NCBI RefSeq assembly: GCF_014199265.1
Contig: NZ_JACIJG010000005.1
Coordinates: 186,001 to 250,000 of the forward strand
DNA from: Brucella daejeonensis
Lineage (GTDB): Bacteria; Pseudomonadota; Alphaproteobacteria; Rhizobiales; Rhizobiaceae
Direction: 5' to 3'
DNA: 64,000 nucleotides
The notes under the pieces were generated by a model, which worked only from the letters and a program-made list of their open reading frames with translations, was not told the DNA's origin and searched no databases. Made by a program: the position numbers and the translations under genes. Position 1 is the stretch's first letter, and every line of letters starts with the position of its first letter. Positions 38,104 through 44,051 of the stretch are shown in pieces.

Positions 38104-40425
38104 TTATCTTTTGCGCTGGGCCGATTCGCCAGACTTCTGCAGGGCTTCCACGACTGCAAGCGCTGTCATATTGACCACGCCACGCGATGTGACCGACGGG
38201 GTCAGAATATGCGCGGGCCGGGCCGAGCCGAGCAGGATTGGGCCTACATGCAGGGCATCGGTGACGGTCTTGACCACATTCAGCGTGATATTTGCCGCAT
38301 CGAGATTCGGGAACACCAGGAGGTTGGCTTCACCCTTGAGGCGTGAATTCGGAAATACGCGATCACGCAGTGCTTGCGACAGCGCGGAGTCACCATGCAT
38401 CTCGCCATCGGATTCGAGGTCGGGTGCTTTTTCCGCAAGAATTGCTGCCGCTTCGCGCATTTTTTCCGCGCTTGCCGATTCCTTCGAACCGAAGTTGGAG
38501 TGCGAGACAAGCGCGGCCTTGGGGGCTATCCCGAAACGGCTGATTTCCTTTGCGGCAAGAATGGCCATTTCGGCAACCTCGTTCGCACCCGGCTCGACAT
38601 TGACATAAGTGTCGGTGAGAAAGAGTGCGCCGCGTTGCGATATAAGCAGGCTGAGAGCGGAATAATCGCGAATGCCGGGCACCTTGCCGATGATCTGGCG
38701 CACGACACGCAGATGCCTCTCGAACCGGCCTTCGAGGCCGCAGATCATCGCATCGGCTTCGTTGCGCATGACGGCGAGCGCCGCAATGGCGGTCGAGTTG
38801 GTGCGCACGATGGTACGCGCGGCTTCCGGCGTGACACCCTGCCTGCCTGTGTAGGACAGATAGAGGTCGACATAATCGCGGTAACGCGGATCGTCTTCCG
38901 GATTGATGAGATCGAAATCCGTACCGGGGCGAATTTTCAGACCGTAGCGACGCAGGCGGGTTTCGATGACCTGTGGACGTCCAACGAGGATCGGTGCGGC
39001 AATCCGCTCTTCGATCACGACCTGAGCGGCGCGCAGCACGCGTTCGTCTTCACCGTCGGCATAAATGACACGCTTCGGCTTTTCCTGCGCACGGGCGGCG
39101 GCGAATACGGGCTTCATGATGAGGCCGGAGCGGAACACGAAACGGTTCAGACGATCGAGATAGGCTTCCATGTCTTCGATCGGGCGGGTTGCAACGCCGG
39201 TATCCATGGCGGCCTTTGCAACAGCCGGGGCGATGCGCAGAATCAGGCGCTGATCGAACGGAGAAGGAATGATATAGTCCGAACCAAAGGTCGGCGTGTC
39301 GCCCGAATAGGCGCGCGCGGCGACGTCCGAAGGTTCCTCACGGGCAAGCGCTGCAATGGCGCGCACGGCTGCGAGTTTCATTTCCTCATTGATTGCGGTC
39401 GCGCCGACATCGAGCGCGCCGCGGAAGATATAAGGGAAGCAGAGGACGTTGTTCACCTGATTGGGATAGTCGGAACGCCCGGTGCAAATCATGGCGTCCG
39501 CACGCACTGCACGGGCTTCTTCCGGCATGATTTCTGGCTTCGGATTGGCGAGCGCCATGATCAACGGCTTCTCGGCCATCTGGCTCAGCAGTTCCGGTTT
39601 CAGCACGCCGGCTGCCGAAAGCCCCAGGAAAACATCGGCGCCGCCGATAACATCGGCGAGCACTCGCGCATCGGTCTTTTGCGCGTAGACATCTTTCCAG
39701 CGGTCCATCAGCGTGTTGCGGCCTTCGTAGACGACGCCGTCAATATCGCAAACCCAGATATTTTCGCGTTTTGCGCCGAGATTGACCAGAAGATTGAGGC
39801 AGGCGAGGGCCGCAGCTCCAGCACCAGAGGTGACGATCTTTGCATCCGCGATCTTCTTGCCGGCAAGTTCCAGACCGTTCAGCACTGCTGCGGCGACGAT
39901 AATCGCAGTTCCGTGCTGGTCGTCATGAAACACCGGAATGTTCATCTTGGTGCGGAGTTGTTCCTCCACTTCGAAACATTCCGGAGCCTTGATGTCTTCG
40001 AGATTGATACCGCCGAATGTCGGTTCCAGAGCGGAAACGACATCGACAATGCGATTGATCTCGTGAGCTTCGATTTCGATATCGAATACGTCGATATCGG
40101 CGAATTTCTTGAAAAGAACCGCTTTGCCTTCCATCACCGGCTTCGAGGCGAGGGCACCGATATTGCCAAGACCGAGAACAGCGGTTCCGTTGGAAACGAC
40201 GGCGACGAGATTTCCGCGCGCAGTATATTCGGCCGCAGTTGAGGGGTCTTCATGGATCGCGATGCACGGGGCGGCAACTCCGGGCGAATAGGCCAGCGCC
40301 AGGTCGCGCTGATTGCCGAGAGGCTTCGTGGCCTGAATTTCGAGCTTTCCGGGCTTCGGATAGCGGTGGAAAAACAGAGCTGATTCCTCAAAATCCGAAC
40401 GCGTGGAAGTCGTTTTCTTCGTCAT
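38104..40425 (-). CDS. maeB: NADP-dependent malic enzyme with phosphotransacetylase-like domain
   Basis: 773 residues. The N-terminal malic enzyme part (about 1-430) shows [47 protein letters not shown] and [11 protein letters not shown] (NADP fold). The C-terminal part (about 440-773) resembles phosphate acetyltransferase (e.g. [22 protein letters not shown]) and in MaeB has a regulatory, acetyl-CoA-sensing role. It decarboxylates malate to pyruvate. The ATG at 40425 is used; a TTG 18 bases upstream is less likely. Full family length. Confidence 0.95.
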
Positions 40426-40598
40426 GGTAGCATCGCTTTCCAAAGTCTTTCGCGTCAGTAGAGCTTTCCGCTGCGCGTGGAGCGTGCAGGTTTCTGCACG
40501 CCGGGCCTTTATCGTTTCTAGTCTATTGTCTCAAATTCCAGTAGGCCCGTTTTCGAGAATGAGTTTTTCCAAATTTGCAGGTCTGTTACAGGACGCCG

Positions 40599-41725: not shown

Positions 41726-42871
41726 TTATTCAATAGGGGGAATGAATTCTGCTCTCGGGCGAATGAGCGATCCGCTTTCGGCTTGCTCCAGCGCATGAGC
41801 GAGCCATCCCACAATTCGAGCGAGGGCAAAAAGATAAAGTGGGGCATTCGGTGGCAGATCGTAGATTTCGGCGATTGCAGAGAGAGCAAAATCGACATTG
41901 GGCTTCTCACCGAGAATTTCAGCGGCGTGGTGTTGCAGTTCGAGATATTGGGACGGCAGTTCAAGGTCCGCCAGCAATAGGCTGGCCCGAATATCGCCCG
42001 TTTCCCGATAGAGCAGGTGGCCAAAAGATTGAAGCGGGGTTCCGTGCAGGAGATTTAACCGGATTGCCTCTTCAGCACCGACAAGGCGTGCCCGCTCTAC
42101 TATAGCTGCGGTGGCGGTCGCCGCGCGCCCATGTAGCGGGCCTATCAGTGCGGACAATCCAGACAGTACGGCGGCAGACAGAGGTGCACCTGTGGAAGCG
42201 GTGACGCGTGCTGCGAAAGCTGACGCGTTCAGTTCATGATCGGCGAGTAGTACGAGCGCGCGTCGAATCGTATCCGCTGCATCAGGCCTGTCCCAGGTCT
42301 GCGCAATATGTTCATGCAAGAGCCCCCGTACGGTTTGTGCGCCCAGCACCGTGTCGTGAAAAAGCTGGAGAATATCCCAAGCTTCCCGTTTCAATATGCT
42401 GGGCGACCGGCCCATGCTTGGCAAATCGTTTGCCGCCCGGATGCCGAAGACCTTGAACAAACGCTCCAGCGGATGACCATCGACCGCCTCGCGGTTGTCC
42501 ATTATCTCTAGGTCACGTTCATTCGGCTCGGCCTGCCATAACAGGGCAACCACATCTTCCAGTGTCGCGGTTGGGGAGAGATCCGAGGCGTCATATCCGC
42601 GGTAGAGAAGACGGCCATCCGTAACGGTGGATATTGCCGAGCGCATGATGGGCAGTCCCCAACGGATCGTGTCCGCAGCAACCGCTCTCTCTCTTTTACG
42701 TCCGGGCCGACGCTCCGCCAGCCGATATACATCTTCCGATTTGTAAAGACTGCGCCTTGGATCGTCAGGAAAAGGCTTGGAGCGAACGCGTCCACGACTG
42801 ACATTTGCGTACAATGTTTGCGGCTTTGTCTGAAGAATAGCGAGGGCTTCCTCTGCGGTTAGCCAGTCCAT
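41726..42871 (-). CDS. Citrate synthase-family protein with N-terminal HTH domain
   Basis: 381 residues. The first ~60 residues (WLTAEEALAILQTKPQTLY, then RSLYKSEDVYRLAE) look like an excisionase/MerR-type helix-turn-helix. The rest is a citrate synthase fold with GPLHG (His), SFGHLLYRE (His) and NVDFALSA (catalytic-type Asp). The divergent neighbour at 42960 is a paralogue without the HTH. The combination suggests either a DNA-binding regulator that senses acyl-CoA or citrate, or an enzyme with an extra domain. ATG at 42871 with AAGG upstream. The function is unproven. Confidence 0.85.
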   Translation of the reverse strand: MDWLTAEEALAILQTKPQTLYANVSRGRVRSKPFPDDPRRSLYKSEDVYRLAERRPGRKRERAVAADTIRWGLPIMRSAISTVTDGRLLYRGYDASDLSPTATLEDVVALLWQAEPNERDLEIMDNREAVDGHPLERLFKVFGIRAANDLPSMGRSPSILKREAWDILQLFHDTVLGAQTVRGLLHEHIAQTWDRPDAADTIRRALVLLADHELNASAFAARVTASTGAPLSAAVLSGLSALIGPLHGRAATATAAIVERARLVGAEEAIRLNLLHGTPLQSFGHLLYRETGDIRASLLLADLELPSQYLELQHHAAEILGEKPNVDFALSAIAEIYDLPPNAPLYLFALARIVGWLAHALEQAESGSLIRPRAEFIPPIE

Positions 42872-42896
42872 CCTTGCTCCCTACATTGATCTATTT

Positions 42897-42914
42897 CGTC
42901 AAGATTGACGTCAA
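42897..42914. promoter_or_regulatory. Overlapping palindromes between the divergent citrate synthase genes
   Basis: CGTCAA-GA-TTGACG (42897-42910) is a perfect palindrome, and TTGACGTCAA (42905-42914) is a second one sharing a half-site. Three GTCAA half-sites thus lie in 18 bases, in the 88-base divergent gap and next to TATACT (42916-42921), a possible -10. This is a candidate operator for the HTH protein encoded alongside. Confidence 0.55.
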
Positions 42915-42959
42915 CTATACTTACTCTCAATGTCTCAAGGCAAACAAGGAGAAATCGCT

Positions 42960-44051
42960 ATGAGCAGCGGACTTGAAGATGTGATCGCCGCCGAAACCGT
43001 GTTGTCTGATGTTGATGGCCTTGCGGGGCGGCTGGTCATTCGCGGGCGGTCACTTGACGATCTGGTGCCGCAAAGCCGGGTTGAAGACGGAATCGAGCTT
43101 CTGTGGGACGGCTTTTTCGATGAGCTTCCAAAGGGGGAGGAATTGCAGAAAGCGCTCGGCGAAGCGCGTGTTCAGGTATTCGCACATACTGACGCACTCG
43201 ACGATACGCTGATGGAAATGTCTCCCATCGAGGCGCTGCGCGCATTGATGGCTCGTATCCCGGATGACGACGACCTGACTGTTGCACTGCACTTGATGGC
43301 GGCACCTGCGGTATTCACGACCGCCATCCTGCGTGGGCGCAAGGGCCGGCATCCCATATGTCCTGATCCTTCCCTTCCGCACAGTGTCGATATCCTGCGA
43401 ATGGTCAATGCCAGAATGCCGGATGAGGCTGAGATAGCCGGACTGGATACATATCTTATGGCCGTATCCGATCACGGCCTCAACGCATCGACTTTCGCGG
43501 CACGCGTGGTGGCGTCGACGAGGGCGGGTCTTACTTCTTCCCTTCTGGCCGCGATCAGCGCTCTCAAAGGGCCGCTTCATGGCGGGGCGCCGGGGCCGGT
43601 TCTCGACATGCTGGATGCGATCGGTGTCGCGGAAAACGCTGATAGCTGGCTGGAGGACGCTCTCGCAGACGGTGAAAGGTTGATGGGGTTCGGGCACCGC
43701 ATTTATCGCGTCCGCGATCCGCGGGCGGATGCATTGAAAGGGGCTTTGAAACGAATTGCCGAGATCGGAGGTGGGAACGGGCAACGTATCGAACTGGCCG
43801 AGGCTGTCGAACAGGCCGCTATTGCGCTTTTGAAACGCCACAAGCCGGGACGTTCACTCGAAACCAATGTCGAGTTCTACACAGCGCTCCTGCTTGAGCA
43901 ACTGGGCTTCCCCCGTGAGGCGTTTACCTGTGTTTTTGCCATGGGCCGGACTATGGGCTGGGTGGCTCACTGTCGCGAACAGGTGGCGGCAAACAAGCTG
44001 ATCCGCCCGCAGTCACGTTACATCGGCCCAAAGATCGATCTCGTCGCCTGA
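42960..44051 (+). CDS. Citrate synthase-family protein (no HTH), Asp-to-Glu at the active site
   Basis: 363 residues. The citrate synthase fold is shown by GPLHGGAPGPV (first catalytic His) and GFGHRIYRVRDPRA (second His). At the third catalytic position, NVDxxSG in the family, it reads NVEFYTA: the Asp is Glu and the following SG is missing. The ATG at 42960 has AAGGAG eight bases upstream. It diverges from the HTH paralogue. It is shorter than the main GltA (about 430 residues) and may act on another acyl-CoA or be partly regulatory. Confidence 0.85.
   Translation: MSSGLEDVIAAETVLSDVDGLAGRLVIRGRSLDDLVPQSRVEDGIELLWDGFFDELPKGEELQKALGEARVQVFAHTDALDDTLMEMSPIEALRALMARIPDDDDLTVALHLMAAPAVFTTAILRGRKGRHPICPDPSLPHSVDILRMVNARMPDEAEIAGLDTYLMAVSDHGLNASTFAARVVASTRAGLTSSLLAAISALKGPLHGGAPGPVLDMLDAIGVAENADSWLEDALADGERLMGFGHRIYRVRDPRADALKGALKRIAEIGGGNGQRIELAEAVEQAAIALLKRHKPGRSLETNVEFYTALLLEQLGFPREAFTCVFAMGRTMGWVAHCREQVAANKLIRPQSRYIGPKIDLVA

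Follow-up and report, generated by a model that had tools for sequence, protein, structure and literature searches.

A winged-helix protein with a citrate-synthase fold is a probable local transcription regulator in Brucella daejeonensis

Why would a protein built like a citrate synthase carry a DNA-binding domain, and what ties it to the second citrate synthase gene transcribed away from it? The question is raised by two divergent genes in a 64,000-nucleotide stretch of Brucella daejeonensis (NCBI RefSeq assembly GCF_014199265.1, contig NZ_JACIJG010000005.1, positions 186,001 to 250,000), hereafter the window. On the minus strand, positions 41726-42871 encode a protein of 381 amino acids (aa) in which a winged helix-turn-helix (HTH) precedes a citrate-synthase (CS) fold, here called HTH-CS. 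On the plus strand, positions 42960-44051 encode CS2, a PRK12350-type citrate/methylcitrate synthase. Judging from domain and structure searches and from an operator-like site upstream of the gene, we propose that HTH-CS is a dedicated local one-component regulator in which a citrate-synthase fold has been re-used as the sensor, a reading to which we assign a probability of about 85%.

In the AlphaFold model of HTH-CS (mean predicted local distance difference test score, pLDDT, 86), residues 1-54 form a winged helix, which is joined to a CS fold by a poorly ordered linker (about residues 55-80). The winged helix (42710-42871, minus strand) has its recognition helix at about residues 17-27 (PQTLYANVSRG), the linker (42632-42709, minus strand) has pLDDT values below 50 at residues 58-71 and 73-76, and the CS-fold domain (residues 81-373; 41753-42631, minus strand) contains H212, H247, H285, R295, D327, R352 and R371. 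Pfam recognized this domain as PF00285 (Citrate_synt, E 9.7e-51), and the best Foldseek matches of the model were citrate and methylcitrate synthases (TM-score about 0.66, root-mean-square deviation about 6), with E-values of 1.5e-13 for the best, 1a59, and 4.3e-13 for 3hwk. The N-terminus taken alone showed structural likeness to MerR/excisionase domains and has the MerR/Xis type of winged helix. The Pfam HTH_17 match in HTH-CS itself scored 15.5 bits, under the gathering score of 27; HTH_17 was found in 15 of 15 family members (set A1) at E <=1 (best 1.3e-5), and MerR_1 in 1 of 15. The original prediction had placed an excisionase/MerR-like HTH in front of a citrate synthase fold on the minus strand, and Pfam, AlphaFold and Foldseek all agree with it, including the predicted structure of the N-terminal region. 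HTH-CS passes no curated NCBIfam citrate synthase model, the best being TIGR01800 with 133.6 bits against a cut-off of 421.3, and three relatives were likewise under all NCBIfam cut-offs (four proteins tested in total).

CS2 scores 460.9 bits against NF009005 (cut-off 332) and is 363 aa long from the start conserved among its homologs, or 373 aa from position 42930. The two genes are separated by 88 bp (42872-42959), and their products are 30% identical (BLAST). CS2 has the motif NVE at the position of the catalytic Asp (Glu codon at 43872-43874, plus strand), just as had been predicted for the divergent plus-strand copy, and HTH-CS has NVD (Asp327 codon at 41891-41893, minus strand). The closest named relatives belong to Brucella/Ochrobactrum, and the genome contains three CS-fold genes, namely a GltA-like gene, HTH-CS (detected in two pieces) and CS2.

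The intergenic DNA contains a 29-bp operator-like site, TTGAT-CTATTTC-GTCAA-G-ATTGA-CGTCAA (42886-42914, plus strand), which emerged from a comparison of the DNA upstream of HTH-CS genes, where the consensus is TTGAT-N7-RTCAA-N-ATTGA with an optional fourth half-site. The window site is the only match in its own genome at up to three mismatches. Within 160 bp upstream of HTH-CS, the operator core was found in 111 of 115 loci (107 in strict form), a set that includes the window's own locus (L086) and omits L119, where tblastn at 1e-15 gave no hit; L127, which is the same place as L119, has no operator core in 12 kb, and the full tally is thus 111 of 116. Some of the contig-derived loci may duplicate species present in the genome sample, and we rely on counts since the information content of the operator is partly circular, its rows having been picked by pattern.

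A second view of the site comes from 299 whole genomes of Pseudomonadota, in which HTH-CS was detected at E <=1e-60 and CS2 at E <=1e-75. A 23-mer operator pattern was present in 35 of them, that is, in 29 of the 36 genomes with HTH-CS versus 6 of the 263 without it (Fisher p 6.7e-28), and each of the 29 has a single site, always oriented the same way and located 4-42 bp from the start of HTH-CS. The reversed pattern, used as a control, matched 3 of 299 genomes, so most of the six matches in genomes without HTH-CS may be due to chance; these six genomes (G371, G377, G507, G510, G565 and G616) have one 23-mer match each and no detected HTH-CS. Among the seven HTH-CS genomes lacking the exact 23-mer, the core is present in G496 and G577 and G581 comes close by eye; no operator core was found in G474, G362, G613 and G447. 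An exact 17-mer was found in 8 of 199 genomes of the order (twice in G005, one overlapping palindromic place), a scan in which W at the first position excluded the site of the window itself, and in 9 of 151 genomes of the family with one site each. The site is also found in Deinococcus and is conserved in two phyla.

The recognition helix and the site vary together. Where residue 23 of HTH-CS is N or S (84 loci), the fourth half-site GTCAA is present in 84 of 84, and where it is Y (27 loci), in 0 of 27; A18 together with Y23 is paired with TTGATCAA in 10 of 13 cases. In the HTH-CS tree, the rows with N/S23 fall in one group of 9 (92/94) in which alpha-, beta- and gammaproteobacteria are intermingled, and the co-change may therefore represent a single event.

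The distribution of CS2 supports the view that HTH-CS regulates its divergent neighbor. CS2 was found in 26 of the 299 genomes, all of them among the 36 with HTH-CS (hypergeometric p 1.3e-29), and in all 26 it lies divergently beside HTH-CS across a gap of 83-149 bp; ten of the 36 have HTH-CS without CS2. Among named homologs, restricted to the best 80 among the matches listed, CS2 is present at 74 of 80 loci. Two of the remaining six are cut by contig ends (L051 and L059), and the other four (L030, L048, L062 and L072) have other genes and retain the operator despite the different neighbor. As side observations on the pair, CS2 lies about 1.5 kb away from a full-length HTH-CS in L049, the CS2 match is partial beside a full-length HTH-CS match in L017 and L025, and a TGA interrupts the CS2 match in G194 (C1:542385-543446), where HTH-CS is full length.

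Other lineages pair HTH-CS with different genes. In a sample of 50 Xanthomonadaceae genomes, HTH-CS is present in 10 (three of which overlap the phylum sample), and in each of the 10 it is transcribed away from prpB and the operator core is present; PrpC was seen after prpB in 9 of 10, and the HTH-CS match of L155 contains a stop. PrpB, PrpC, AcnD and PrpF tested from three of these loci scored above the NCBIfam cut-offs. In L128, acnD-prpF is divergent from HTH-CS. Elsewhere the divergent gene encodes a family III coenzyme A (CoA)-transferase (L030, L062, L123 and L167), a 2-hydroxyacid dehydrogenase (L122 and L165), DinB (L048 and L072, the Pfam run being on L048) or, in Deinococcus, an HMGL-like carboxyltransferase with the site kept; in L166 and L168 a transporter gene comes first and a 2-hydroxyacid dehydrogenase gene follows. 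Among eight plasmid loci, hand-chosen from 70 records with an HTH-CS match, the core is present in L162, L163, L165 and L167 (L163 has CS2) and a GTTG variant in L166 and L168. On plasmids of Burkholderia (L164) and Caballeronia (L169), HTH-CS is co-directional behind MFS and VOC genes and no operator was found. A divergent HTH-CS branch (L120 and L121, and also L104 and L127) is likewise without operator, and the gene adjoining HTH-CS in L120, L121 and L127 resembles uppP by eye.

Most of the target types, i.e., methylcitrate cycle enzymes, CS family members, HMGL-like proteins, CoA-transferases and 2-hydroxyacid dehydrogenases, are in keeping with a family of sensors for small carboxylates in which the ligand is lineage-specific. 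DinB as a target does not fit such a family obviously, and this weighs against our proposal. The original prediction that HTH-CS controls its divergent partner is nevertheless reinforced by the occurrence of CS2 only beside HTH-CS and by the retention of the site next to other targets. Its idea of a metabolite-sensing regulator is strongly supported as regards the regulator, on account of the unique conserved operator and the helix co-change; the sensing of a metabolite and the binding of DNA are parts that we infer.

What would such a sensor bind? The catalytic and carboxylate-binding positions, which we take to be equivalent to those of pig and Escherichia coli citrate synthase, are strongly conserved among the 115 loci (H212 in 113, H247 in 113, H285 in 111, R295 in 115, D327 in 113, R352 in 114 and R371 in 115), and the window protein has all seven. 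The His/His/Asp assignment follows the catalytic triad of PrpC (PMC9765439). By contrast, the segment R295-N325 is 31 aa long in 99 of 115 HTH-CS sequences, whereas at least 96 of 102 CS2 rows have 45-50 aa there, and the segment W112-H212 is mostly 96-97 aa versus 124 in CS2. After FGHxxY, at a position that would be a CoA contact going by the pig enzyme, 99 of the 115 HTH-CS sequences have P and 10 have R/K, whereas 100 of 102 CS2 rows have the basic R/K; the window protein retains R (R289). We read this as a small-carboxylate pocket, of the oxaloacetate/citrate type, that is conserved, an acyl-CoA site that seems eroded and a small domain that is shortened. In L117 the operator is present and H285 is replaced by N. 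Going by the alignment, none of the three catalytic residues is left in L120 and L121 although the three arginines are kept, and this branch looks like a sensor without catalysis.

On the CS2 side, 98 of 102 rows have Glu at the Asp position, the exceptions being L017, L025 and L051, which look broken or partial, and one PrpC caught in L116. NVE is also present in the CitA proteins of Bacillus subtilis and Mycobacterium tuberculosis, which are solved relatives of the PRK12350/NF009005 citrate synthases, and it is therefore a subfamily trait that does not serve to complement HTH-CS. The "complementary active-site changes" that the original prediction saw in the pair are thus not upheld, since the active site of the HTH copy is complete. 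In E. coli citrate synthase, an Asp-to-Glu change at this position reportedly confers the activity of a citryl-CoA lyase (Man and co-workers, 1991). Unlike its family in general, CS2 is always paired with a divergent HTH-CS in the sample of 299.

Taken together, we hypothesize that HTH-CS would dimerize in the manner of citrate synthases and bring two winged helices to the inverted repeat TTGAT-N7-RTCAA, next to which lies a further TTGA half-site; the presence of a third half-site suggests that binding may be asymmetric or involve more than one dimer. In citrate synthases, which are dimers, the domains close when oxaloacetate binds. P. aeruginosa PrpC is described as more compact in its oxaloacetate-bound form (PMC9765439). 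A tricarboxylate or a 2-oxo- or 2-hydroxy-carboxylate in the pocket might likewise close the CS domains and reposition the heads, and this change would release, or less likely activate, the divergent gene, which in the window is CS2, together with the gene of HTH-CS itself. For the window protein, oxaloacetate, citrate and 2-methylcitrate are candidate ligands; for the xanthomonad proteins, our best guess is 2-methylcitrate.

The position of the site suggests autoregulation along with repression of the target. Toward HTH-CS, a consensus scan of the intergenic DNA gave a weak promoter-like site (TTGCCT, 18 nt, TATAGT; 42914-42943, minus strand) with 9 of 12 consensus matches, where 0.2 were expected by shuffles, and its -10 abuts the operator. 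The scan reported this minus-strand site only; a possible CS2 promoter, also weak, was seen by eye (TTGACG at 42905-42910, 17 nt, CAATGT at 42928-42933; 42905-42933, plus strand), and its -35 lies inside the operator. HTH-CS is probably a repressor: in the genomes scanned, the site is 4-42 bp ahead of the HTH-CS start codon, and it overlaps or adjoins the putative -35 of the target, which in our view makes repression likelier than activation. That HTH-CS activates the divergent gene instead is a tentative alternative, to which the location on or upstream of the putative CS2 -35 lends some weight, as MerR-like heads often belong to activators. In MerR activation, however, the operator lies between -35 and -10 with a spacer of 19-20 nt, compared with the 17 nt of the putative CS2 promoter, and the site is found beside the promoter-like site of the regulator's own gene.

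Could HTH-CS instead be an enzyme? As a trigger enzyme, it would catalyze a (methyl)citrate-type synthase or lyase reaction and, as a regulator, sense the flux of that reaction. In line with this are the CS fold recognized by Foldseek, R289 of the window copy and the conservation of the His, His and Asp that correspond to the catalytic residues (113, 111 and 113 of 115 sequences); the shortened R295-N325 segment, the P after FGHxxY in most of the family and L117, which keeps the operator yet has H285N, speak against it, and we regard it as rather unlikely. Equally doubtful, in our estimate, is a wider version in which a family of CS-fold-sensor regulators, extending together with its operator from Proteobacteria to Deinococcus and switching targets within carboxylate metabolism, includes some catalytic members that read their own reaction. 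Far less probable is that HTH-CS and CS2 are subunits of one hetero-oligomeric synthase with the HTH as a targeting or structural part, the other possibility raised by the original prediction. This could account for CS2 never being found without an adjacent HTH-CS in the 299 genomes, but the ten HTH-CS genomes without CS2 do not support an obligate hetero-oligomer; moreover, HTH-CS adjoins unrelated enzymes, mostly with the same operator, the two proteins are only 30% identical, and the operator would be left unexplained. We give just as little credence to the conserved DNA being a promoter or the site of another regulator, with HTH-CS a moonlighting enzyme that has a vestigial HTH. Such a view would explain the TTGAC hexamer within the site, but not that the site stays with HTH-CS through changes of target and into Deinococcus, is seldom present where HTH-CS is absent (6 of 263 genomes) and varies with the recognition helix. 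A dedicated regulator thus remains the reading that we favor.

How does HTH-CS relate to known systems? Its CS domain is similar in structure to PrpC and to citrate synthases, and the xanthomonad proteins occupy the divergent slot beside prpB that is expected for a prp regulator. PrpR in Salmonella is of the sigma-54 type. HTH-CS differs from PrpR in having a CS-fold sensor and a MerR/Xis-like HTH, and Pfam at E up to 1 found no AAA+ sigma-54 interaction domain in it; there was no GntR Pfam match either. P. aeruginosa PrpR is believed to be a ligand-responsive repressor (PMC9765439). The MocR subfamily joins a GntR head to an aminotransferase-like sensor (PMC5320631) and follows the principle proposed here for HTH-CS, i.e., an HTH together with a metabolic-enzyme fold that binds the ligand of the enzyme, although both the head and the enzyme fold differ. 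Compared with MerR/excisionase proteins (BldC, CarH, Xis and SoxR), the HTH-CS model has a disordered linker and no long dimerization helix of the MerR type, and dimerization would presumably occur via the CS domain.

No citrate-synthase-fold regulator was found in titles and abstract openings of the open-license literature, most subscription papers being outside that scope, and the main texts of two regulon papers contained no mention of PrpR, PrpQ, propionate or methylcitrate. Suvorova and co-workers reportedly described new regulators of propionate and malonate genes in 2012 (J Bacteriol), and the role of the xanthomonad HTH-CS may already be published under another name. Enzyme-fold regulators as such are known; one with a CS fold and a deeply conserved operator appears to be new.

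Two further places in this genome may be mentioned. A gene near the pair, at 38104-40443 of the window, resembles by eye a malic enzyme with a phosphotransacetylase-like C-terminal half. Elsewhere, locus L151 (G000:C16:58000-70000) encodes a PrpB-type lyase that scores above its cut-off, and neighboring open reading frames resemble a GntR regulator, MmgE/PrpD-type proteins and a transporter binding protein; a genome-wide CS search found no CS gene there, and L151 is possibly a locus for tricarboxylate catabolism.

Where HTH-CS proteins are named in the database records examined, they are called "citrate synthase," "citrate/2-methylcitrate synthase" or "citrate synthase family protein," with one "hypothetical protein," and they are likely miscounted as enzymes of the tricarboxylic acid or methylcitrate cycle when they are most likely transcription regulators. 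If our proposal is correct, a fold of central metabolism would serve as a regulatory sensor with a readable operator, offering a handle on carboxylate sensing, and the xanthomonad methylcitrate operon would gain a candidate regulator. The family would also be a new example of an enzyme that has evolved into a sensor, with the catalytic residues retained in some forms and lost in others.
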